DNA of 64,000 nucleotides from a virus. The notes under the pieces are model-generated. The model had not been told where the DNA came from. It saw only the letters and a list, made by a program, of their open reading frames with translations, and made no database searches. Positions 13,558-64,000 of this stretch are shown here, one piece after another. The stretch spans positions 18,991-82,990 of the IMG/VR virus record IMGVR_UViG_3300029319_008466. One strand, written 5' to 3'. Made by a program: the position numbers and the translations under genes. Numbering within the stretch: position 1 is the first letter of the stretch; each line of letters begins with the position of its first letter.

Positions 13558-13871
13558 ATTTTTTATTTTTTACAATTTTGATATTTTCAATAGTACTTAA
13601 CGCTATGCTGATTTGGTATACCAAGAAGTTACTACAAAAATTATCATTTGTATATGACAACATAGAGGCAATGAAAACTTTAAATACGCCTTTCTTAGAA
13701 CATATTCAAGGTCTTAACGAAATGGAGATGTACTATGGAGATCCAACGCTACAAGGGTTATTGGATCATGCAAGTTATATAACAGAGCAATATAGCATAT
13801 TTAGTGAAATATTTGATGAGTTGCAATTTGGGGTAGAAGAAATACAGCAGGAACAGGAAAAAGATGCCTAG
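13554..13871 (+). CDS. small membrane-anchored protein
   Basis: 105 aa. Residues about 3-24 form one strongly hydrophobic segment (LFFTILIFSIVLNAMLIWY), followed by KK, which suggests an N-out or N-in single-pass anchor. The remainder is an acidic helical domain ending in a Gln/Glu-rich tail. The ATG overlaps the zinc-ribbon stop (ATGA), and the end overlaps the sigma gene by 8 bases. I do not recognise the family; no function is claimed. Confidence 0.68.
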   Translation: MNFLFFTILIFSIVLNAMLIWYTKKLLQKLSFVYDNIEAMKTLNTPFLEHIQGLNEMEMYYGDPTLQGLLDHASYITEQYSIFSEIFDELQFGVEEIQQEQEKDA

Positions 13872-14553
13872 AAAAAAGAAGTCAGGTAGACACTATTTTA
13901 CCAAAGACCACGAAAATGCAATCATACAGTATGTTGCAACAGATGATCAGAAACTAAGAACACAACTTTATATTGACTACATTGGACCAGCATTTAATGA
14001 AATGGTTGATAAGATAGTTTATACATACAAGTTTACCACCCTTCCAAACATAGATGCTCTTAAAGATGAGTGTAAAGTTTGGCTCACAACAATTTTGGAC
14101 AAGTATGACCCAAGCAAGGGGTCTAAAGCATTTTCTTATTTTAGCGTGATTACAAAAAATTGGTTTATTCACAAAGTTAAGAAAAATGCCAAAAGAGCTA
14201 GAGTTGAGGTTCTGTATGACGAGCTACCAAAAGAGATAGAAAATGAGCACATTGTATCTAATAACAAATATCACGAAACCCGCGAGGAGCGAGAGTTTTG
14301 GAAGTTTCTTTGGGTAGAGATGGAAAGCTGGGACACTGGTAACTTAAAAGAAAATGAAAAAAAAGTATTAGAGGCTATTAAAATACTTCTTGACTCAATC
14401 GACGAAGAGGGGATGATTTATAATAAAAAAGCAATATATCTTTATCTACGAGAAATTACCGGTCTTAACACAAAACAGATTGTCAACAATCTTAATAAAC
14501 TTCGTATAAAGTATCGTATATTTAAGAAAAATTGGGTTAATGGCAAAATATAA
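13864..14553 (+). CDS. late-transcription sigma factor, T4 gp55-like
   Basis: 229 aa. The central segment (residues about 60-105: LKDECKVWLTTILDKYDPSK then SKAFSYFSVITKNWFIHKVKK) is the region 2 core-binding and -10-recognition part of reduced sigma factors, including the aromatic-rich SYFSVITKNWFI helix used for promoter melting. The C-terminal third could hold a small region 4-like helix-turn-helix (LREITGLNTKQIVNNLNKLR). T4 gp55 directs host RNA polymerase to late promoters. It sits directly upstream of the tail module and is the natural candidate to read the CTAWTTA sites found there (inference). Confidence 0.8.
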   Translation: MPRKKKSGRHYFTKDHENAIIQYVATDDQKLRTQLYIDYIGPAFNEMVDKIVYTYKFTTLPNIDALKDECKVWLTTILDKYDPSKGSKAFSYFSVITKNWFIHKVKKNAKRARVEVLYDELPKEIENEHIVSNNKYHETREEREFWKFLWVEMESWDTGNLKENEKKVLEAIKILLDSIDEEGMIYNKKAIYLYLREITGLNTKQIVNNLNKLRIKYRIFKKNWVNGKI

Positions 14554-17197: not shown

Positions 17198-17204
17198 CTA
17201 TTTA
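17198..17204 (+). promoter_or_regulatory. CTAWTTA motif immediately before an ATG without Shine-Dalgarno
   Basis: CTATTTA ends five bases before the ATG at 17210. No purine-rich ribosome-binding site is visible, so a transcript started ~6 bases downstream would be leaderless. Confidence 0.5.
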
Positions 17205-17209
17205 AAGAT

Positions 17210-18169
17210 ATGGCAAATACTACAAAAAGTGTGTGTTTAGATGGCTTAGATGAAAGCACTATAAAGGCAGCGGAGCAAAACGAAGAATATCAAAGTGGCA
17301 ACAGGGGAAGAGGTGTCAACGGCGACACTATACTTGAAGCAATTCCCGAACATGATCAAACACCTTGTGAAAAAGTATATAACCACCATAATTCATGGAT
17401 TGTTCTTGGAAGAGATCGCAATGGTGGCAAAAGTAGTGGATATGGTGGAAAAGGGCATACACAAGCACACTCAATCGACATAGTAGTGGGCAAAGGTGGT
17501 CATTGCGGAGATTTTGACGATGGTCAGTTACTTCCTCCAAATTTTGTTGCTGATACTGCTAGAATTTATATAAGCCAAAAGACAGATATTGATGAATACT
17601 TTGGAATCAATGCTGGTCAAATGGGACAGTCTGTTGCCAAGTCCGGCATAGGAATTAAAGCAGATGCTGTTCGAATTGTCGGCACCGAGGGTATAAAACT
17701 TGTTACAAGAACTGAATCTCAAAATTCAAAAAATGGATTTGCTCCATATAATGGAATAGAAATTATTGCGGGCAACGATGACTCTTCGTTACAGTCCATG
17801 GTTAAGGGCGATGACTTGCTCGAATGTCTAAAGGAACTAGAACAAAGAATAAATGATATATCCGATTATCTTACGCAATTCGCAGATGCACAAATAGAAT
17901 TTAATGCTAAAGTAAAAGATCACACTCATCCCTTAAACGGATCCGCAATAGACCCCCTTTCTGGGCTAATTCCTATCGATCCAACATCTACTGCAAAATC
18001 TTCTTTAAATCTTAGAACGCCTGCCGCAATTGCGAACTCAAAAATAAACAATATGTCACTCGATCTATATAATGCTCATCGACCAAATTTAAACGTGTTT
18101 TGGCGCAACAAATATTTAAGCTCTGCCGGAGATAATTATATACTAAGCCGATACAATAAGGTGAATTAA
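17210..18169 (+). CDS. spike/hub-associated structural protein
   Basis: 319 aa. Contains SWIVLGRDR followed by a Gly-rich SGYGGKGHTQ region and a beta-rich stretch (IGIKADAVRIVGTEGIKLVTR) that looks like repeating strands of a small beta-helix or gp5/gpV C-terminal-type spike. Residues about 205-245 are a helical segment. I associate this arrangement with phage baseplate spike proteins near M15 peptidases, without a precise family name. No enzymatic motif seen. Two bases separate it from the next gene. Confidence 0.6.
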   Translation: MANTTKSVCLDGLDESTIKAAEQNEEYQSGNRGRGVNGDTILEAIPEHDQTPCEKVYNHHNSWIVLGRDRNGGKSSGYGGKGHTQAHSIDIVVGKGGHCGDFDDGQLLPPNFVADTARIYISQKTDIDEYFGINAGQMGQSVAKSGIGIKADAVRIVGTEGIKLVTRTESQNSKNGFAPYNGIEIIAGNDDSSLQSMVKGDDLLECLKELEQRINDISDYLTQFADAQIEFNAKVKDHTHPLNGSAIDPLSGLIPIDPTSTAKSSLNLRTPAAIANSKINNMSLDLYNAHRPNLNVFWRNKYLSSAGDNYILSRYNKVN

Positions 18170-36737: not shown

Positions 36738-36744
36738 CTAATTA
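36738..36744 (+). promoter_or_regulatory. CTAWTTA motif seven bases before an ATG without Shine-Dalgarno
   Basis: CTAATTA precedes the ATG at 36752. Only ATAGTAT lies between, so no ribosome-binding site is possible there. Confidence 0.5.
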
Positions 36745-36751
36745 ATAGTAT

Positions 36752-37867
36752 ATGGAGTTTTTTAATAAAAAAGAAGAAGTAATTGATCTAAAACTTACAC
36801 AATATGGTAGATACCTTTTGTCACTGGGTCAGTTTAAGCCCACTTATTACGCATTTTATGATGAAGAGATATTATATGACTCCAATTACGGCGGAATTTC
36901 GGAGGATCAAAATAGTTCAGAACCAAGGATTCAAGAAAACACTCCAAGTTTAAAATTGCAACATCTTTATCACAGCATTGATGATGAAATGTTGAGAGCC
37001 TCACAGGTTCAAGAACTGGGCTATGAAAAAGTTGCTGCAAAAATAATTCAACCAACTCCAGAAAAAACACAAACTTTGCAAAAACCTTTAGGGCACTCAC
37101 GCTTAGGTTCAAATAAAGTTCCCGCTTGGCAGATAACCGCGCTTGGTGGAAAAATTTTAACAGCAAGCACTGAAGCAACTTTAACACTTAGTGGCTCCGA
37201 GACTATTTTGGAAATTCCACAAATTGAGGCAGAAATAAAATATACTGTATCAATTGAACAACATCAGCTTGATTTAATCGAGTCAATAAATGAAGGAATT
37301 TTGTCTGGAGAATTGGACGATGAAAATCATAGCATGATGCGCGATCTTATAGAGCAATCTGGTGGCGAAAATTTTGATGAATTGTCGTATGAGATTAAAG
37401 TATACGAAGATGGAAGTTACTTCGCAATTGATGCAGACCAGTTAATATTGGAAATAGTCGAAGAACATGCCCCAATGGGCAACAAGAATTTCGAAATAGA
37501 AGTTTTTGAAAGAGAAGATAAAAAAACAAACAAAACAGCAAACACAACAACCGTTACAAAATTAAATCAACTTAGTTTTATTTCAAAACCCGAACTTGTT
37601 GTTAATGATATATTGTTAGATGAAGATGAATCATACACTGGTGAAGAACCAGCAATTGATACAAGTTGTGTTGATTATTACTTTGATGTTGAAGTGGATG
37701 GTGAAATTGATCCATTAATAATTTGTAACAAGCTACAGAACGCAGATCTAGATGAGTACAAGTTCGCATTTAAAGATTTTAGATGTGAAGATTTCACACA
37801 ATCAGCTTATAAATTTCTTAGCCCTTATGCGGAAAAAGATGATGAAACAGGGTGTGGGGAGACGTAA
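36752..37867 (+). CDS. tail structural protein, recurrent marine-phage type
   Basis: 371 aa. The first 60 residues (EFFNKKEEVIDLKLTQYGRY, YYAFYDEEILYDSNYGG) have a pattern I have seen repeatedly in phage structural clusters, without an assigned function. The remainder is acidic beta-rich sequence, with three regularly spaced acidic strands. Five bases separate it from the next gene. It starts with ATGG immediately after a CTAATTA site, suggesting it may be read from a leaderless mRNA. Confidence 0.62.
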   Translation: MEFFNKKEEVIDLKLTQYGRYLLSLGQFKPTYYAFYDEEILYDSNYGGISEDQNSSEPRIQENTPSLKLQHLYHSIDDEMLRASQVQELGYEKVAAKIIQPTPEKTQTLQKPLGHSRLGSNKVPAWQITALGGKILTASTEATLTLSGSETILEIPQIEAEIKYTVSIEQHQLDLIESINEGILSGELDDENHSMMRDLIEQSGGENFDELSYEIKVYEDGSYFAIDADQLILEIVEEHAPMGNKNFEIEVFEREDKKTNKTANTTTVTKLNQLSFISKPELVVNDILLDEDESYTGEEPAIDTSCVDYYFDVEVDGEIDPLIICNKLQNADLDEYKFAFKDFRCEDFTQSAYKFLSPYAEKDDETGCGET

Positions 37868-45631: not shown

Positions 45632-45638
45632 CTATTTA
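45632..45638 (+). promoter_or_regulatory. CTAWTTA motif five bases before an ATG without Shine-Dalgarno
   Basis: CTATTTA followed by GTATA and then ATG at 45644. Upstream AAGATAAAAG closely resembles the flank of the 23509 site. Confidence 0.5.
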
Positions 45639-45643
45639 GTATA

Positions 45644-46843
45644 ATGGCTTATAAAAAATTCAAAAACAATGATATATTTTATAATACTCTGGAAATGCAT
45701 CCAAAGTATGATTTTGTCATATATGACAGTAAAATTTATCTAAACAATCGCGGCGCAGTGTCTGGCGTACTTGTATCAAATGCCGGGGATGTTCCAACAG
45801 GTCATGTAAGCTTATACGAGTTGAATGTTGATAGGGCATCTGGAAATAAAATATACCCTTTTGTTAGTAAAGATGGAACACTCACTAATTTTAAAACAAT
45901 ATCTACTTCAAGTTTTAAATCTGATTATGCTTACGGAGACTCAATTACTGGATCATATCCAATGTCTTCTAGTATAGTGCGGGAGTTTTTTGCTTTTACT
46001 CCAACTTCTCGCACTGGGTCTGTTAGTCATTTATCAACACTAAAAAACACTTTAAATTTTTACAAGCCAATGAGCAACCATTATGCATTCGATGGACCTC
46101 TTGGCGATAAGGGCAAACAAAATGTCAATCTTATAAGTATTCCATCAATTATTTTTGGCTCCAAACTTAAAAAAGGTTCGGTAGATTTAAAATTTTATGT
46201 AAGCGGTACTGTAGTGGGGCAGCTTCAAGACTTAAATCGAGATGGCGAGTTAATCCAAGTGGGACCACCAGGAAGCACAGAGTCGGGGAGTGTAGCTGGA
46301 GTTGTGTTATATAATGAAGGGTTTATATTATTAACAGGAAGTTGGGAAATGAATACCGGACCTTATGCTGGTCCTTTTGCTGGTGAAAAATACACAGGCG
46401 GGAATGTCTTGGCTCCTAAATGGATTTATTTCGGAGCAGGGGCAAACGATGGAATTGCAACACCAAATGTAATTTCTTCTAGTTTTGGATTATCTTTTAA
46501 AAGCACGACAAAAACTCAAACTATTACAATGTTGGCACATGCGCTCAAAGGCGAATATAATCATTCAAATAATCCAACCTTTAGGATATCGGGTTCCAAT
46601 CCACATCGCCTTACCCCTTTTACAAGCAGCGTGGCCTATAAAGAACCAAAAAACCTTTTTATAAAAAACATTGTTTCTTCGTCTTACCCAGACCCAACAG
46701 CGAGCTTTCAAAAGACAACATATATTTCTTCAATTGGAATTTACGACGAAAACAGAAATTTAATTGGTATTGCAAAGGTGGCAACACCAGTTAAAAAAAC
46801 AGAGAATAGAGAATTTACATTCAAACTCAAACTTGATATATAA
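45644..46843 (+). CDS. tail structural protein, paralog of the gene at 44523
   Basis: 399 aa. Matches the preceding protein along its central and C-terminal parts (see that entry), with a longer N-terminal part. Ser/Gly-rich loops and a beta-rich layout suggest a trimeric fibre or tail sleeve. No enzymatic motif. Stop overlaps the following RuvC-like start by one base (TAATG), so late tail genes read directly into DNA-processing genes. Confidence 0.68.
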   Translation: MAYKKFKNNDIFYNTLEMHPKYDFVIYDSKIYLNNRGAVSGVLVSNAGDVPTGHVSLYELNVDRASGNKIYPFVSKDGTLTNFKTISTSSFKSDYAYGDSITGSYPMSSSIVREFFAFTPTSRTGSVSHLSTLKNTLNFYKPMSNHYAFDGPLGDKGKQNVNLISIPSIIFGSKLKKGSVDLKFYVSGTVVGQLQDLNRDGELIQVGPPGSTESGSVAGVVLYNEGFILLTGSWEMNTGPYAGPFAGEKYTGGNVLAPKWIYFGAGANDGIATPNVISSSFGLSFKSTTKTQTITMLAHALKGEYNHSNNPTFRISGSNPHRLTPFTSSVAYKEPKNLFIKNIVSSSYPDPTASFQKTTYISSIGIYDENRNLIGIAKVATPVKKTENREFTFKLKLDI

Positions 46844-47373
46844 TGAAAATACTGGGACTTGACATAAGTTCCTCTAAGATCGGCATTGCACTTCTCAATG
46901 GAGAAGAAATTATTATTAGCGAAGTGCTGAAGTTTAAGCCAAAAACATCCTTAGAGGAGCGTGCTGAAATATTTGAACGTCGAATGCGACAAATAAACAA
47001 ACAACACGTTGTTTACGATGTGTTTGTGGAACAACCTGCTATGATGTTTAAAGGCGGCAAAACCACTGCATTTACTATGGCAACATTACAAAGATTCAAT
47101 GGAATGTGTTGCTATATTGTAAATATTGTTTTTGAAATGGAGGCGGAACTTATCAACCCCAACTCTGCTCGATCAACTCTTGGTATAAAAACTCCAAGAG
47201 GTATACCCCCAAGGGCAAAGAAAAATTTTATTATCGAAAGAATGTCCGAAAGATTCGGAGATAACTTTACATATAATATGACTCGCCAAGGAAATCCACA
47301 ACCAGGAACTGACGACAGAGCCGATGCACTCGTTGTTGCCTTAGCAGGACCATTAATAGTTGACAGCAAATAA
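46843..47373 (+). CDS. RuvC-like Holliday junction resolvase
   Basis: 176 aa, RuvC-like RNase H fold. Asp7 in GLDISSSKIG opens the first strand, Glu63 lies in VFVEQPAM, and the C-terminal DDRADALVVALAG supplies the last acidic pair. Length equals bacterial RuvC (~173 aa). In phages these enzymes resolve branched DNA before packaging; T4 uses the unrelated gp49. Overlapping the paralogous tail gene by one base, it begins the recombination/replication trio with primase and SbcDC. Confidence 0.82.
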   Translation: MKILGLDISSSKIGIALLNGEEIIISEVLKFKPKTSLEERAEIFERRMRQINKQHVVYDVFVEQPAMMFKGGKTTAFTMATLQRFNGMCCYIVNIVFEMEAELINPNSARSTLGIKTPRGIPPRAKKNFIIERMSERFGDNFTYNMTRQGNPQPGTDDRADALVVALAGPLIVDSK

Positions 47374-47388
47374 GCTTCGTGTTATAAT
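47360..47388 (+). promoter_or_regulatory. exact sigma70 consensus promoter before the primase
   Basis: TTGACA at 47360-47365, 17-base spacer, TATAAT at 47383-47388, plus an extended TG two bases upstream (TGTTATAAT). All elements match consensus. The ATG of the primase is only six bases beyond TATAAT, so the expected start of transcription falls on or at the ATG: a probable leaderless early/middle mRNA. Confidence 0.75.
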
Positions 47389-47394
47389 ATATCT

Positions 47395-48330
47395 ATGCAG
47401 AAAAAGTTTAAGATTATATCCGCGATTCTCGGAGATAGCTACCGCTCAAATGATGAATATCTTTTTGCGTGTCCGTATTGTAAACATCATAAAAAAAAGC
47501 TTTCAGTAAATATTGAAAAAAATGTCTATAAGTGTTGGATATGTGAAACTCTTGGAAGAGATTTACGTCGCCTTGTTCGTCGCTTTGGAGACTTTAGTCA
47601 GCTACAAGAGTGGGATAAATTAACAAACCGCATTAATATTAATGAATTTGATGATTTGTTTATGGATACAGGAAAAGAGCCAGACACCCCAGTTTATCTC
47701 GGCATGCCTCATGGTTTTTCTTCATTAAATAACGAATGTTCACTATCTGCCACTCCTGCTTTGAACTATCTTAAGAAACGTGATATAATAGAAGAAGATA
47801 TCTTGTACTGGAAGATGGGGTATTGTATTGATGGCAGGTATGCCAAACGTATTATTATTCCATCTTTTGATAAGAACGGGGATTTAAATTATTTTGTGGC
47901 AAGAAGTTTTTCTTCTGATTCTCGCAAATACCTTAATCCTCCCTGCTCAAAAGATGTCATATTTAACGAACTTTATCTTGAGTGGGATACAGATTTGGTT
48001 ATAACCGAGGGTGTGTTTGATGCAATTGTCGCAGGCCCAAATGCTGTGCCACTACTCGGCTCAACATTGCGTCCTAACTCAAAGTTGTTTATGAAAATTG
48101 TTCAAAATGACACACCAGTTTTTCTTGCACTGGATCCAGATGCGGAAAAGAAAGAACAAAGAATTATAAAACTTTTTTTGACATATGGTCTGGAAGTATA
48201 TAAAGTAGATATAAGCGGATATGAAGACGTATCCGAGATGGGCAGAGAAGAGTTTATTAGAAGAAAGGAAAACGCTATTGCTGTTATGGAAGGTGATTAT
48301 CTTTTAGAACAAGCAATTGCTAATATTTAA
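47395..48330 (+). CDS. DnaG-type DNA primase, T4 gp61-like
   Basis: 311 aa. An N-terminal zinc-binding site is formed by Cys26-x2-Cys29 and Cys47-x2-Cys50 (CPYC and CWIC). The TOPRIM catalytic core has VITEGVFDAIVAG (~residue 202) with the metal-binding Glu and ALDPDAEKK (~247) with the DxD. Length is close to T4 gp61 (342 aa). Primases lay down primers for lagging-strand synthesis. No Shine-Dalgarno precedes the ATG, consistent with the promoter lying six bases upstream. Confidence 0.88.
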   Translation: MQKKFKIISAILGDSYRSNDEYLFACPYCKHHKKKLSVNIEKNVYKCWICETLGRDLRRLVRRFGDFSQLQEWDKLTNRININEFDDLFMDTGKEPDTPVYLGMPHGFSSLNNECSLSATPALNYLKKRDIIEEDILYWKMGYCIDGRYAKRIIIPSFDKNGDLNYFVARSFSSDSRKYLNPPCSKDVIFNELYLEWDTDLVITEGVFDAIVAGPNAVPLLGSTLRPNSKLFMKIVQNDTPVFLALDPDAEKKEQRIIKLFLTYGLEVYKVDISGYEDVSEMGREEFIRRKENAIAVMEGDYLLEQAIANI

Positions 48331-48339
48331 TGGGGTTAC

Positions 48340-51300
48340 ATGTATAAAATTGCACATATTGCGGACACGCATATTAAAAATCTGAAGTATCATTACGAGT
48401 ATCGTATTATCTTCAAGGAACTATACGAAAAGTTAGACAAAGAAGCTCCTGACTTTATCGTCCATTGTGGTGATCTTGCACACACAAAGACACAGCTATC
48501 ACCAGAATATTTTGAACTTGCAACAGAGTTTATAAAGAATGTGGCGGACATCGCGCCATTAGTAATCATTCCAGGCAATCATGATGGCAACTTAAAAAAC
48601 AGCAACCGTCAGGATGCTATTACGCCCATTATTCAAGCCCTGGAGCATCCGAACATTTTCTTTTTCAAGAACTCGGGAGAATTCCATGCCACGCCCGAGC
48701 TTTGTTTCAACATTCTTTCAGTATTTGACGAGGACAACTGGATTGACCCAACCGATACTAGTAAAATTAATATTGCCCTATATCACGGATCTATCTCAAA
48801 TTGTAAAACCGATATTGGTTGGGTGATGGAACACGGTGAGCACGAACTTTCTATCTTTAAGAAGTTTGATTATGGTATGCTCGGTGATATCCACAAAGCG
48901 CAAGCTCTTGATTTTCAAGGTCGTGTGCGCTATTGCGGCTCCACGGTTCAGCAAAACCATGGCGAAACAAATGATAAGGGTTTTGGCATCTGGGAAATTC
49001 AAGATAAGAGAAAGTTCACTTATCGACATGTCGAGCTTATCAATCCCAAGCCCTTTATAACCATCGAGCTTACCCCCAAGGGCAAGATGCCTAAAGGTAT
49101 CGATGTCCCTGAAGGGTCGCGAATTCGCCTTGTGTCTAACAACAATCTGCCTTTAGACAAAATGAAACGCGCTGTTGATGTTGCAAGGCACAGATTTAAA
49201 CCAGAAAATATTACATTCCTTAATCGCGCCCTGGGTAAAAGATCTGACTTTGCTCTTTCGAATGATGACTTTATGAAAGAAAATCTTCGTGACATTTCAG
49301 TTCAAAAAAGATTAATTCGAGAGTTCTTGAAAGAGTATGAAGTTGAGGAAGAAGTTTTAAATCGAATCTTGGATCTTAACGTTAAATATAATACCGTTAT
49401 CGAAGAAAGTGAGGAAGTTGCTCGAAATATTAACTGGGAACTAAATTCTTTTGAGTTTGATAATTTGTTTAATTATGGCGAGAGTAACAGTATTAATTTT
49501 GAAAAACTCACAGGTATTGTCGGCATATTCGGAAAAAACTATTCAGGCAAGTCCAGCATCATTGATGCTGCCCTATATACGCTGTTCAACTCCACCTCGA
49601 AAAATGAACGTAAAAATCTTAACGTAATTAATCAAAACAAAGACAGAGGCTCTGGGCGGCTCAATATTTCTATTGGTGATCGACAGTTTCTTGTCGAAAG
49701 GGAGAGTGAAAAATATATCAAAAAACTAAAAGGGGATGAGACAGTTGAGGCGAAAACAGATGTCAATTTTACAGAATTCGATGCCATTATGGACGAGGCT
49801 GTAAGTCACAATGGGTTGTCAAGAAATGATACCGACAAGAACATTCGTAAAATGTTTGGAACACTTGATGATTTCTTGTTAACCTCAATGGCGTCTCAAT
49901 TGGATTCTCTCACATTTATCAAAGAAGGATCCACGAAACGTAAAGAGATTCTTGCCAAATTTCTTGATCTTGAAATCTTTGACAAAAAATATAAAATGGC
50001 CAAGGAAGACGCATCTGATCTACGCGGAGCATTAAAGAGGTTAGAGGGTAGAGAATTTGACGAAGACATCGAAGCGGCAAAAGAAGAGATAGAACAGAGT
50101 GAATTCAGCATTGAGGAACACAAACAAAGATGTAAACAATATCAACAACAAATGGAAGATACAAGAACATTGCTGACGGAGGTAGAAAATAAGATAACCT
50201 CTATTCCTATAGATGTAATTGATATCGAGGCAGCAAGAAATACTCTAAAAGGCAAGAAAAATAATGTTCACACGTTATTAAAAAGAAATGAAGAACTTAC
50301 TAATAAAAATAATGAAAATAATCAAATTTCCATAAAACTGGCAAGTTTCTTAAAAGAGTACAATGTTGATAGCCTATATGATAAAAAGCAAGAAGTTGAC
50401 AATAAAACAAGTGAATACGAGGAGCTACTTGCTGTTTTAAAAATTAAAAATAAAGATGTTGACACTTACAAGAAAAAAGTTAAATTGTTGGAAAATCATG
50501 AGTACGATCCTGATTGTAAATTCTGTTGCGAAAATAAGTTCGTTAAAGAAGCACACAAAGCAAAACAGAAGTTACCCGACATGCTTTCTGAAATTACAGA
50601 TCTTCGTAAACAAAGTGTGGATCTGTTAGAGCAGATTGATGAGCTTGATGTTGATAAGTTGGCTGATTATATTGAAAAGTATGATAAGCTGGTTGAGCGC
50701 AAAAAAGAAGTGGCTCAACAGATATCTGTTTCTGATTTGGAAATACAGAATAACGTATCAAAGCTTGAAATTTTTAAACATGAGATAGACAATGTAGCAA
50801 AGCAAATATCACTATATGAAGACAATAGAGAGTCAATTGAAAACCTTGAGCAACTTGTTGTAAAAAGGAATGAATATGCCACACTCCTTGCCCGAACCGA
50901 AGAACGCTGCAATGAATGCAAACAACAATTAAACGATCTATACATTAGTCATGGATCGTATGAGCAGAAATTGCAAAACTTAATCGAACAAAAGAAGGAA
51001 CTTTCAGAATTACGAGAAGAGTATTCCGCCTATGACTTGTTTATGCGATGCATGCATACCAGTGGCATTTCTTATGATATTATAAAAAAGAAGCTACCAG
51101 CAGTTAATCAGGAAATCGCAAAAGTCTTGGCCAATATAGTAAATTTTGAAGCGTTTTTTGAAGACGAAGGCAGAAAACTAAATGTGTATATTAAACACCC
51201 CAGCCATGAACCGCGACCAATTGAGATGGGATCTGGTGCTGAAAAAACAATTGCCTCGATGGCTATACGACTCGCACTTCTTCACGTAAGTAATTTGCCA

Positions 51301-51501
51301 ACACCGAACGTCTTTATTATGGACGAGCCAGGCACCGCACTCGATGCTGAAAACATGGAAGGATTCGTTCGTATTTTGGACATGGTTAAAAATTATTATA
51401 AAACTGTTGTATTAATATCACACGTTGATGCCTTGAAAGACTGTGTGGATCATGTTATTAATGTTGAAAAGGAAAATGGTTATGCAAAAGTCAATGTTTG
51501 A
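48340..51501 (+). CDS. single-chain SbcD-SbcC (Mre11-Rad50; gp47-gp46) fusion
   Basis: 1053 aa. The N-terminal ~340 residues are a metallophosphoesterase: ADTH (~8-11), CGDLAH (~44-49), GNHD (~79-82), YHGS (~147) and GDIHK (~182). Residues ~380-1053 are an SMC/Rad50-type ATPase: Walker A GKNYSGKSS (~399-407), long coiled coils on both sides of a zinc hook Cys726-x-x-Cys729, signature MGSGAEKTIASMA (~964) and Walker B VFIMDEPGTALD (~990). T4 and most bacteria encode these as two proteins. The complex processes DNA ends in recombination. No frameshift separates the halves. Confidence 0.9.
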   Translation: MYKIAHIADTHIKNLKYHYEYRIIFKELYEKLDKEAPDFIVHCGDLAHTKTQLSPEYFELATEFIKNVADIAPLVIIPGNHDGNLKNSNRQDAITPIIQALEHPNIFFFKNSGEFHATPELCFNILSVFDEDNWIDPTDTSKINIALYHGSISNCKTDIGWVMEHGEHELSIFKKFDYGMLGDIHKAQALDFQGRVRYCGSTVQQNHGETNDKGFGIWEIQDKRKFTYRHVELINPKPFITIELTPKGKMPKGIDVPEGSRIRLVSNNNLPLDKMKRAVDVARHRFKPENITFLNRALGKRSDFALSNDDFMKENLRDISVQKRLIREFLKEYEVEEEVLNRILDLNVKYNTVIEESEEVARNINWELNSFEFDNLFNYGESNSINFEKLTGIVGIFGKNYSGKSSIIDAALYTLFNSTSKNERKNLNVINQNKDRGSGRLNISIGDRQFLVERESEKYIKKLKGDETVEAKTDVNFTEFDAIMDEAVSHNGLSRNDTDKNIRKMFGTLDDFLLTSMASQLDSLTFIKEGSTKRKEILAKFLDLEIFDKKYKMAKEDASDLRGALKRLEGREFDEDIEAAKEEIEQSEFSIEEHKQRCKQYQQQMEDTRTLLTEVENKITSIPIDVIDIEAARNTLKGKKNNVHTLLKRNEELTNKNNENNQISIKLASFLKEYNVDSLYDKKQEVDNKTSEYEELLAVLKIKNKDVDTYKKKVKLLENHEYDPDCKFCCENKFVKEAHKAKQKLPDMLSEITDLRKQSVDLLEQIDELDVDKLADYIEKYDKLVERKKEVAQQISVSDLEIQNNVSKLEIFKHEIDNVAKQISLYEDNRESIENLEQLVVKRNEYATLLARTEERCNECKQQLNDLYISHGSYEQKLQNLIEQKKELSELREEYSAYDLFMRCMHTSGISYDIIKKKLPAVNQEIAKVLANIVNFEAFFEDEGRKLNVYIKHPSHEPRPIEMGSGAEKTIASMAIRLALLHVSNLPTPNVFIMDEPGTALDAENMEGFVRILDMVKNYYKTVVLISHVDALKDCVDHVINVEKENGYAKVNV

Positions 51502-51503
51502 AA

Positions 51504-51510
51504 CTATTTA
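51504..51510 (+). promoter_or_regulatory. CTAWTTA motif before the lysis-like block
   Basis: CTATTTA lies three bases after the SbcDC stop and 26 bases before the ATG at 51537. The predicted start of transcription (~51516) falls inside the left arm of the hairpin described next. Confidence 0.5.
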
Positions 51511-51513
51511 TCT

Positions 51514-51534
51514 TATAGCCAAAGGAGGGCTATA
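51514..51534 (+). promoter_or_regulatory. perfect 7-bp leader hairpin with Shine-Dalgarno in its loop
   Basis: TATAGCC (51514-51520) pairs with GGCTATA (51528-51534). The seven-base loop is AAAGGAG, which with the next G forms a strong Shine-Dalgarno for the ATG at 51537. The right arm ends two bases before that ATG, where the 30S ribosome must bind. Such a hairpin would probably lower translation from read-through messages. Confidence 0.6.
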
Positions 51535-51536
51535 TT

Positions 51537-51725
51537 ATGAGTAGACATGCAATTTTAGACAAGATAATGGCAAAAGCCATCTCACGAAAATTATTTACCT
51601 TTTTAACAGCAACGGGATTGATGTTGTGGAGTGACCTATCATCAGACACCTGGGGCATGATCGCTATGGTTTATATTGGCACACAAGGCGCTATTGACGC
51701 TATGAAGGAATACAGGCACGGATAA
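51537..51725 (+). CDS. small two-helix membrane protein, candidate holin
   Basis: 62 aa. Two hydrophobic segments, about residues 18-32 (KLFTFLTATGLMLWS) and 38-54 (TWGMIAMVYIGTQGAI), with basic N-terminal and C-terminal ends (RHAILDKIMAK; EYRHG). This is the pattern of a class II-type holin. The next two genes look like a spanin-type pair, supporting lysis. Shares a base with the next ATG. Strong AAGGAGG ribosome-binding site, enclosed in a hairpin. Confidence 0.6.
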   Translation: MSRHAILDKIMAKAISRKLFTFLTATGLMLWSDLSSDTWGMIAMVYIGTQGAIDAMKEYRHG

Positions 51726-52129
51726 TGACTTGGTTAACATTTGTTTTATATTCTAAAAAGATTTGGGTTTGGTGTAAGCACCACTGGAAGATTCTTGCAA
51801 TTGCCCTATGGACTCTTGTTGTATTTCTAGTCGCTCGAAAAAATGTAAGAGCATATAAAAAGGTCTTAGATACTACAATCCAGAACTACAAGAAAGAGGT
51901 TGATGTTTTGGAAAACTCTCACAGACAAGAAATTGAAAAGAGAAATAAAGCGATTAAAAAACATAACGATGATATCAAAAAACTTGAAGAAAAGTACGCT
52001 GGCGATAAACATCAACTTGATGTTCAAAAGCGCTCTCGATATCTCGAACTAGTAAAAATGTACGATGTTGACCCAGAGAATATTAATAAAATTTTACAGG
52101 AAGAATTTGGATTTAAATATGAAGAATAA
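51725..52129 (+). CDS. inner-membrane coiled-coil protein, candidate i-spanin
   Basis: 134 aa. One membrane segment (residues ~21-38, WKILAIALWTLVVFLVAR) followed by about 70 residues of charged coiled coil (VDVLENSHRQEIEKRNKAI; IKKLEEKYAGDK), then an acidic C-terminal tail. This is the layout of i-spanins (inner-membrane anchor plus periplasmic coiled coil). The start overlaps the candidate holin stop by one base (ATG at 51725), and the end overlaps the next gene by 11 bases. Confidence 0.6.
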   Translation: MTWLTFVLYSKKIWVWCKHHWKILAIALWTLVVFLVARKNVRAYKKVLDTTIQNYKKEVDVLENSHRQEIEKRNKAIKKHNDDIKKLEEKYAGDKHQLDVQKRSRYLELVKMYDVDPENINKILQEEFGFKYEE

Positions 52130-52574
52130 AATTATTGCCAATATGTTAGCTTTTGGGCTAGTGTTTCCTGCCCCTATTTTTGCACAGGACATTGAAGAGG
52201 CAAAATATACACATCTTGATGCCGGGGAAACAGCGCCATTTGCAGGTATATTGTTTAATCCCGCAGCCCTTGCGGAGCTTTTGTCAGAAAAAACATTTTC
52301 TGATGAGGAGTGTGATTTAGAAGTTGAATATCAAGTGTCAAGGGCAAGGACCGAAATGCAATTAAAACTTGACTCTCTACAAATAAGTTACGATGCGTTA
52401 GAAGAAAAGCATCAACTTTTGATGGATATCAAAAATAGCGAGATAGATACTTATAGAGAGATGGCTCTTGACCAGCCAAATAAAAACAATCAATGGTGGT
52501 TAGCAGGAGGAGTGGTTGTTGGTATAGGGTTGTCCCTTGGAACGTTTTATGCCGTAACAGAAATCAATGAGTAA
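52119..52574 (+). CDS. exported protein with C-terminal membrane segment
   Basis: About 151 aa. N-terminal signal peptide (KNKIIANMLAFGLVFPAPIFA, cleavage near Ala22-Gln23), an APFAGILFNPAALAELL motif I have seen in other phage proteins, a coiled-coil middle (~65-115), and a C-terminal hydrophobic span (WWLAGGVVVGIGLSLGTFYAV). No lipobox Cys, so not an ordinary o-spanin or unimolecular spanin. It could still span the periplasm as a lysis helper (inference). ATG 52119 is preferred to a longer in-frame start at 52065 because it supplies the signal peptide. Confidence 0.6.
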   Translation: MKNKIIANMLAFGLVFPAPIFAQDIEEAKYTHLDAGETAPFAGILFNPAALAELLSEKTFSDEECDLEVEYQVSRARTEMQLKLDSLQISYDALEEKHQLLMDIKNSEIDTYREMALDQPNKNNQWWLAGGVVVGIGLSLGTFYAVTEINE

Positions 52575-62289: not shown

Positions 62290-62296
62290 CTATTTA
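62290..62296 (+). promoter_or_regulatory. CTAWTTA motif before the last fibre gene
   Basis: CTATTTA lies in the 93-base gap 62240-62332, 36 bases before the ATG at 62333, which has AAGGGAG upstream. Confidence 0.45.
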
Positions 62297-62332
62297 TAAT
62301 GAACAACCATACTTAAGGGAGCTTGATTATAG

Positions 62333-64000
62333 ATGGGTGAATTTTCATGGGCATATGTTGAGGGCGCTGGATCTACGGCAAGCGGACCTACAGGGTCTCT
62401 TCAATTTCGGGCTGGTGACGATAGAGGGCAGCCCACGCTAACCGGTAGTTCCAGATTAATCTTTAATACGGCTTCTCAGGATCACGCCCTCACACTTACC
62501 GGCTCATTTAATATTAGTGGCAACTTAAATGTTGCTGGCAACATTACTACAATTTCTGCAAGTAATTTGTCAATACAAGATTCAATAATTGGTCTTGGGT
62601 TCGGTACGGGAAGTAACCACACAGGTGTAGCTGGTGATCGCGGGTTTGTCTTTGGAATTACCGGCAACGAAAACAAAGCGCTTTTTTGGGATCAAACATC
62701 TGGTTCTTTTGTTGTAGGGAAAGTTGTATCACAAGCCCCTCACGCTTTGTCGCTTGATGTGTCTGAGGCAAATCTTAGCACCTTTAAAGCGGGCGGTGTC
62801 ATGGTATCTGGTGCAACTGGAGTTCGCGTAGATCGTGGGCCACTTTCCGCTTCTGGTCGTGGTTATTTTACAGATGTTGTGCAAATGGCAGGCACTCTTA
62901 ATGTTTCTGGCTCCGCAAGATTCCTTTCGCAAATAACTGCTTCAAGCTTAAATGCACATGGTGATATTAAGGCTACCGGGTCTTTTTCTGGGTCCGGTGC
63001 TATCTTTACAGATGATGTGCAAATAGCAGATAGCCTACACGTCTCGGGCGCAACTTTAATCGGTCATGGTCTAGCCCCAGTTGCAGGAAGTTCACATCAA
63101 GTAACGGGCGCTATTTATGTTACCTCAAGTCAGGCAAGTCATTTTTCTGGATCACTTGATGTTGTCGGAGGCATTACAGCAACTTCTGGATTTTCTGGCT
63201 CAACCGCCATCTTTACAGATGATGTGCAAATGGCTGATGATCTTGGCGTTTCCGGTTCTTCAAAATTTGTTGGGTTTGTTTCTGCTTCTAATGAGATTTT
63301 TGGATACTCTATTAGGACAAGCGGAGACATCGCATCTTCAGGATCCATTATTTTAAATGACGGTGGTTCACTAAAAGAGGGCGGTGGCACCGCAGCATTT
63401 ACATTTGACGACAGTGGACACGTTACAAAAATTGGACAAGGCTCTCCATCAAGCAATGATGTTTTGAAATGGGATGGTTCTAAGTGGGCACCCGCAGCAG
63501 ATGCGACTACTACTATTTCAAATGATGCTGATAACAGAATTACAACCGCCAAGGGAGATGGTGACTTAAACGCTGAAGCCAATGCAACATTTGATGGAAG
63601 TGAGTTGAGAATTATTGGTCGCATGTCAGGCACGAGCTTAAATGCACATGGTGACATTAAGGCTACCGGATCTTTCTCCGGCTCAGGTGCTATCTTTACA
63701 AACAATGTACAAATGGCAAGCACTCTTAATGTTTCTGGTTCTGCAAGATTCCTTTCGCAAATAACTGCTTCAAGCTTAAATGCACATGGCGACATTAAGA
63801 CTACCGGATCTTTCTCCGGCTCAGGTGCTATCTTTACAGATGATGTTATAATGGCAGATAGCCTACACGTCTCGGGCGCAACTTTAATCGGTCATGGTCT
63901 AGCCCCAGTTGCAGGAAGCTCGCATCAAGTAACGGGCGCTATTTATGTTACCTCAAGTCAGGCAAGTCATTTTTCTGGATCACTTGATGTTGTCGGAGGT
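62333..64000 (+). CDS. tail-fibre-type repeat protein, 3' truncated by the window
   Basis: The frame is open for all 556 codons from ATG 62333 to the end of the window; the stop is outside. The N-terminal 130 residues (SFNISGNLNVAGNITTISASNL) resemble trimeric fibre start regions; the rest is made of repeating beta modules such as SLNAHGDIKATGSFSGSGAIF and SGATLIGHGLAPVAGSSH. The translation is Ser/Gly-rich and low in charge. The Shine-Dalgarno is AAGGGAG. DNA repeats inside it (see below) suggest fast evolution by duplication and recombination, as in host-range fibres. Confidence 0.72.
   Translation, partial: MGEFSWAYVEGAGSTASGPTGSLQFRAGDDRGQPTLTGSSRLIFNTASQDHALTLTGSFNISGNLNVAGNITTISASNLSIQDSIIGLGFGTGSNHTGVAGDRGFVFGITGNENKALFWDQTSGSFVVGKVVSQAPHALSLDVSEANLSTFKAGGVMVSGATGVRVDRGPLSASGRGYFTDVVQMAGTLNVSGSARFLSQITASSLNAHGDIKATGSFSGSGAIFTDDVQIADSLHVSGATLIGHGLAPVAGSSHQVTGAIYVTSSQASHFSGSLDVVGGITATSGFSGSTAIFTDDVQMADDLGVSGSSKFVGFVSASNEIFGYSIRTSGDIASSGSIILNDGGSLKEGGGTAAFTFDDSGHVTKIGQGSPSSNDVLKWDGSKWAPAADATTTISNDADNRITTAKGDGDLNAEANATFDGSELRIIGRMSGTSLNAHGDIKATGSFSGSGAIFTNNVQMASTLNVSGSARFLSQITASSLNAHGDIKTTGSFSGSGAIFTDDVIMADSLHVSGATLIGHGLAPVAGSSHQVTGAIYVTSSQASHFSGSLDVVGG
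62882..63172 (+). repeat. long direct repeat inside the fibre gene, copy 1
   Basis: 291 bases nearly identical to 63710-64000, offset exactly 828 bases (276 codons). The last ~145 bases differ at only two positions by eye. Because both copies lie in the same frame, they give near-identical protein modules. Confidence 0.85.
63635..63772 (+). repeat. 138-base tandem-like unit in the fibre gene
   Basis: Begins with the SLNAHGDIK codons; the same segment restarts at 63773, 138 bases (46 codons) later, and also occurs at 62945. The shared part covers about the first 65-70 bases, through GSGAIFT, with a few changes. Confidence 0.7.
63710..64000 (+). repeat. long direct repeat inside the fibre gene, copy 2
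   Basis: Second copy of the 62882-63172 segment, running to the end of the window; the repeat may continue beyond it. Confidence 0.85.

Follow-up and report, generated by a model that had tools for sequence, protein, structure and literature searches.

Does a phage keep a lysis-type gene silent on RNA that reads in from an upstream operon, and release it only on RNA from the gene's own late promoter? The question is raised by a site ahead of a gene for a 62-aa protein in the window (the whole stretch of 64,000 nucleotides of viral DNA analysed here), whose source is a marine phage, a distant relative of T4. The original prediction, made from the sequence alone, had noticed a promoter-like CTATTTA followed by a hairpin over the ribosome-binding site, and had proposed that early read-through RNA folds over this site and late RNA does not, as for T4 genes e, soc and 49. 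In this work, we combine RNA folding, profile searches and a comparison across relatives to evaluate that proposal; the features concerned are collected in Table 1.

Table 1 Features of the window that bear on the putative gate.
Feature	Position	Strand	Remark
gp55-like late sigma factor	13864..14553	+	phrog_234 profile match; proposed reader of CTAWTTA
sigma70-type promoter TTGACA-17-TATAAT	47360..47388	+	6 nt before primase ATG; conserved in relatives
SbcCD fusion gene	48340..51501	+	last gene of the upstream operon; stop 51499-51501, 2 nt before the promoter box
late-promoter-like box CTATTTAT	51504..51511	+	also the outer-stem left arm in read-through RNA
inner stem left arm TATAGCC	51514..51520	+	sequence
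predicted late transcription start region	51515..51518	+	inferred from short-spaced genes
Shine-Dalgarno AAAGGAGG	51521..51528	+	AAAGGAG (51521-51527) is the hairpin loop
inner stem right arm GGCTATA	51528..51534	+	sequence
outer stem right arm AUGAGUAG	51537..51544	+	start codon and next five bases; RNAfold
62-aa holin-like gene	51537..51725	+	predicted two-helix hairpin
134-aa gene	51725..52129	+	N-terminal membrane segment, coiled coil; same position as the Rz-like spanin match in L115
151-aa gene	52119..52574	+	signal-peptide-like N-terminus, C-terminal membrane segment

A predicted hairpin encloses the start of the 62-aa gene

On re-checking, the arms of the inner 7-bp stem (51514-51520 and 51528-51534) are fully complementary, AAAGGAG lies in the hairpin loop ahead of the ATG at 51537, and CTATTTA (51504-51510) ends three bases from the start of the stem, all as originally described. 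The spacing of two bases before the ATG holds for the end of the stem but not for the Shine-Dalgarno sequence, as GGAGG (51524-51528) ends 8 nt before the ATG. Overlooked at first was an outer 8-bp helix, found with RNAfold, in which CUAUUUAU (51504-51511) pairs with AUGAGUAG (51537-51544). Inner and outer stems together comprise 15 bp and pair the start codon with promoter sequence, and the AUG is predicted to be unpaired with a probability of 0.01 in read-through RNA.

The segment from the promoter to ATG+14 folds with -16.4 kcal/mol (z -4.9), a stability that none of 200 shuffles reached. This is the most stable of the 55 gene starts in the window (runner-up -12.0), and a perfect 7-bp flanking stem is found at one of the 204 GGAG sites of the window, that of the 51537 gene. 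When box, Shine-Dalgarno sequence and start were held fixed, 58 of 20,000 random fillings folded equally well, corresponding to a chance of such a hairpin of about 0.003 for a single site and, with nine late promoters, of about 0.03. The hairpin structure is real; by itself, it is a weak case for a gate, and the family comparison below bears most weight.

A promoter-like box and a late sigma factor

The motif CTANTTA has 24 + strand and 4 - strand matches in the window, 8 of the 24 but none of the 4 being intergenic (binomial 5e-11), where intergenic space amounts to 602 of 62,239 bases (1%). Upstream of the 62-aa gene, the box is present in many relatives that do not carry the window's stem, as ACTATTTA, ACTAATTA or ACTACTTA, also in those with no hairpin at all. 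Aligned sites give the consensus aCTAWTTAt with no clear -35 element, and match the layout of T4 late promoters (PMC2988020) with a different box. Strand-biased, located between genes and conserved before the 62-aa gene, CTAWTTA is thus promoter-like and would act as the late promoter of this phage. The T4-like TATAAATA was also considered as the late box and rejected, as it shows no excess upstream of + strand genes. Among the top matches of an incomplete literature coverage, we found no paper describing CTATTTA as a promoter in phages. The genome itself encodes the candidate sigma factor that would read the box (phrog_234, E value 2e-8; 6.7e-7 in a PHROGs scan), and this gp55-like protein was found in 9 of the 12 records searched, the window's genome among them.

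The gap between box and ATG is bimodal, with either 4-8 nt and no Shine-Dalgarno sequence or at least 15 nt and mostly with one, and none between; short-spaced cases with a gap of 3 (L106, L118, L134 and L143) were left out because the position falls inside the SbcCD coding sequence. By analogy with the short-spaced genes, their gap suggests that late transcription starts about 5-8 nt past the box, here at about 51515-51518. Late boxes with an ATG just 5-7 nt on and no Shine-Dalgarno sequence lie at 17198-17212, 36738-36754 and 45632-45646, and in L092, L096, L100 and L117; such short-spaced boxes likely give leaderless late mRNAs.

Predicted strength of the switch

We define the opening cost of a gene start as the energy (kcal/mol) needed to open the ribosome site from -18 to +13. 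For the 62-aa gene, it is 17.4 in read-through RNA, the most occluded of the 46 ATG starts tested in the window (median 6.35), compared to about 8 in late RNA, modelled as begun 11-14 nt after the start of the box; the latter value remains higher than the window median. Identical calculations for the T4 controls give a drop from 16.8 to 5 for e, from 18.5 to 4 for 49 and from 8.9 to 7.4 for soc. The original statement that late transcripts could not form the hairpin therefore applies to the outer, AUG-covering stem, which is lost for starts at 51515-51518, but not in full to the inner stem, of which 3-6 bp may remain. In computation, the proposed T4 e/soc/49-type logic at 51504-51539 is supported, each of its elements having independent backing in the sequence, with an occlusion on par with that of T4 e and 49 and a promoter link across the family.

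A second late box in the window (62290-62346) pairs through its own sequence with the nucleotides immediately upstream of the ATG at 62333 (-12.7 kcal/mol), and the opening cost at that gene start is 13.2 versus 8.0.

Plausible read-through from the primase-SbcCD operon

Read-through was originally attributed to the early primase-SbcCD operon, and this remains plausible from the sequence. A conserved promoter of the sigma70 type belongs to the operon itself, and a scan of the + strand from 46906 to the hairpin revealed no terminator-like site; therefore, RNA should run on into the 62-aa gene. The promoter matches the sigma70 consensus at 12 of 12 positions and has a TG ahead of its -10 box, and a near-consensus promoter stands 6 nt before the primase in L008, L015, L028, L053, L078 and L086, and 4 nt before it in L013. 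A further box of the late type, which lies at 45632 ahead of the operon and was not considered at first, would give rise to this long RNA in late infection as well.

In the stretch 47360-47397, 6 nt separate the -10 box of the primase promoter from the ATG, an arrangement conserved in relatives, and the primase mRNA may likewise be leaderless.

Occlusion is associated with the late promoter across the family

The window's stem is common to only four relatives (L002, L005, L007 and L011). Third codon positions of SbcC retain 0.45-0.56 identity to the window in three of these, and the 35-nt leader is identical at 27-31 of 35 positions in all four. In the five sequences that share the stem, ATAGCC and GGCTA are invariant, the inner stem retains 5 bp or more, and 85% of cells pair over the 15 stem pairs, compared to 24-40% when slid; the outer stem is disrupted in L005 and L011. 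Covariation, which the original prediction had named as a check, is absent, with no pair changed on both sides in these five sequences. With just five sequences sharing the stem and no covariation, we dropped stem sequence conservation as proof. TAGCC-loop-GGCTA hairpins with the Shine-Dalgarno sequence in the loop and directly before an ATG also occur in L073 (4564-4580), L076 (2498-2514), L071 and L072, contigs that entered the collection by DNA pattern alone.

We then compared opening costs over non-redundant gene starts, in a test designed after a first look at the data. Copies of the 62-aa gene with an adjacent late promoter (n=24) have a median of 11.6 kcal/mol, compared to 5.3 for those without (n=32; p=6e-7) and 7.4 for other genes with a promoter (n=30; p=1.4e-5); for other promoter-less genes, the median is 7.6 (n=445). 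The association between occlusion and promoter is thus specific to the 62-aa gene, and other promoter-bearing genes show no such effect. It is stable at every fold length used (p 4e-7 to 4e-5), persists against shuffled leaders (p=1.5e-4) and has the same direction in 22 of 25 pairs of a promoter copy and its nearest promoter-less neighbour in the protein tree (p=1.3e-5). Between coarse protein clusters (5 versus 6) p is 0.09, and therefore the relatedness of the sequences is not fully removed. Starting the RNA at the predicted late site lowers the opening cost by 4 kcal/mol or more in 73% of the promoter-bearing copies, compared to 16% for a comparable truncation of others. As a family measure, z-scores from shuffling the short stretch between promoter and start gave a weak signal (p 0.018), and opening cost was used instead.

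The folds themselves differ. L033 has an 11-bp stem with the Shine-Dalgarno sequence in its loop, coding sequence in L115 pairs with the promoter box and the bases that follow it, and in L141, L016 and L017 arms upstream of the box pair with the Shine-Dalgarno and start region. Some promoter-bearing relatives (L081, L098, L110 and L145) have little structure, and close relatives with an extra gene ahead of the 62-aa gene have neither box nor hairpin. It is possible, at somewhat short of even chances, that this marine T4-related lineage keeps the gate by selection for function and not structure, with promoter copies repeatedly gaining different folds, often with the promoter as one arm, and promoter loss leading to loss of the fold.

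Close relatives in which the 62-aa gene has no late box or hairpin are L009 (2881-3610), L003, L004, L006, L008 and L010. In loci that include SbcCD (L009 and L077-L080), an additional gene of about 230 codons seems to lie between SbcCD and the 62-aa gene.

Other readings of the hairpin

The most serious alternative is that a real late promoter serves the late cassette and the hairpin next to it is a chance structure without function. The confinement of the stem sequence to four close relatives, the lack of covariation, the several promoter-bearing relatives without structure and the probability of roughly 0.03 for one such hairpin over nine late promoters are all what it would lead one to expect. 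It is nevertheless unlikely, as the stem arms are kept though synonymous sites are near saturation, and the family-wide link between promoter and occlusion is specific to the 62-aa gene.

Translational coupling is less probable still. Here, ribosomes finishing SbcCD 36 nt upstream would melt the hairpin, and the gene would depend on SbcCD translation rather than be silenced early. The SbcCD stop (51499-51501) is 2 nt away from the outer left arm, presumably within reach of the terminating ribosome, which would cover that arm and might open it; this possibility also counts against the timing gate. The inner stem, however, lies beyond the expected ribosome edge, and coupling would not account for the association of occlusion with the late promoter. 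Least probable by our estimate is a DNA operator, where the 21-bp palindrome over the predicted start site (a 7-7 inverted repeat with a 7-bp spacer) would bind a repressor or activator dimer, since the window holds no second copy above chance and relatives have unrelated sequences that preserve pairing and not a motif.

A timing gate as the favoured reading

These sequences are best explained by a T4 e/soc/49-type timing gate, a reading that we consider probable. The computation supplies the structure, the promoter motif, the sigma gene, the upstream promoter and the family-wide association of promoter and occlusion, whereas we infer the exact start site, the timing, the repression and the lysis role of the 62-aa gene. 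Early RNA from the sigma70-type promoter would pass through SbcCD into the holin-like gene and carry the full 15-bp hairpin, in which the outer stem would tie the AUG to promoter-derived sequence and the inner stem would clamp the Shine-Dalgarno sequence in a 7-nt loop, so that ribosomes load poorly. Later, the gp55-like sigma would bring the polymerase to CTATTTA, and the late RNA, starting inside the left arm, would be without the outer arm and without part or most of the inner arm, and would be translated.

The closest known counterpart is T4 gene e, for which a 100-fold repression has been reported for the long RNA (PMC3014915). Its late box lies 34 nt before the ATG, compared to 33 nt in the window, the left arm falls within or just after the box in both, the hairpins have -13.3 and -16.4 kcal/mol, respectively, with similar opening costs, and upstream RNA, which reads in at T4 e, would do so in the window as well. 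The window differs in having CTATTTA instead of TATAAATA, the Shine-Dalgarno sequence in the loop and not in the stem, the AUG in an outer stem and a gene whose 62-aa protein is unrelated to T4 lysozyme. T4 soc and gene 49 likewise have a late promoter (37 and 36 nt before the ATG) and a hairpin over the start, but they are different genes and the soc hairpin is weaker in our calculation. Ribosome-binding sites are also sequestered in transcripts from upstream promoters and freed in late ones for I-TevI, I-TevII, I-TevIII, segB and Aeh1 mobE (PMC2988022); these are homing endonuclease genes, whereas the window gene heads a lysis-like late cassette.

The lysozyme gate is known from T4 and close relatives, and some other T4-type phages have gene e without it (PMC3014915). 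If our reading is true, uncultured marine phages apply the same logic to another gene, a holin-like one, and with another late box, which would suggest that the silencing of lysis-type genes on read-through RNA is a recurrent need. If promoter and fold came and went repeatedly in dozens of relatives, this would constitute a natural experiment on the evolution of such RNA gates.

The putatively gated gene and its cassette

The original description of the downstream genes as lysis-like finds weak backing. Two holin PHROGs match at E values of about 0.085, in 4 and 2 of 15 family members, and the L115 counterpart of the 134-aa gene matches an Rz-like spanin (E value 1.8e-4), but the window's own 62-aa protein has no holin PHROG match. 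AlphaFold models this protein as a two-helix hairpin (pLDDT 69), and its hydropathy is modest, with no window of residues above 1.3. No relatives of it were found in annotated phages by tblastn and no near matches to the region by megablast. A lysis cassette led by the 62-aa gene is therefore plausible.

Further downstream, the last ORF of the window contains a near-identical repeat (63041-63160 and 63869-63988, about 828 bases apart) and probably encodes a repetitive fibre-type protein.
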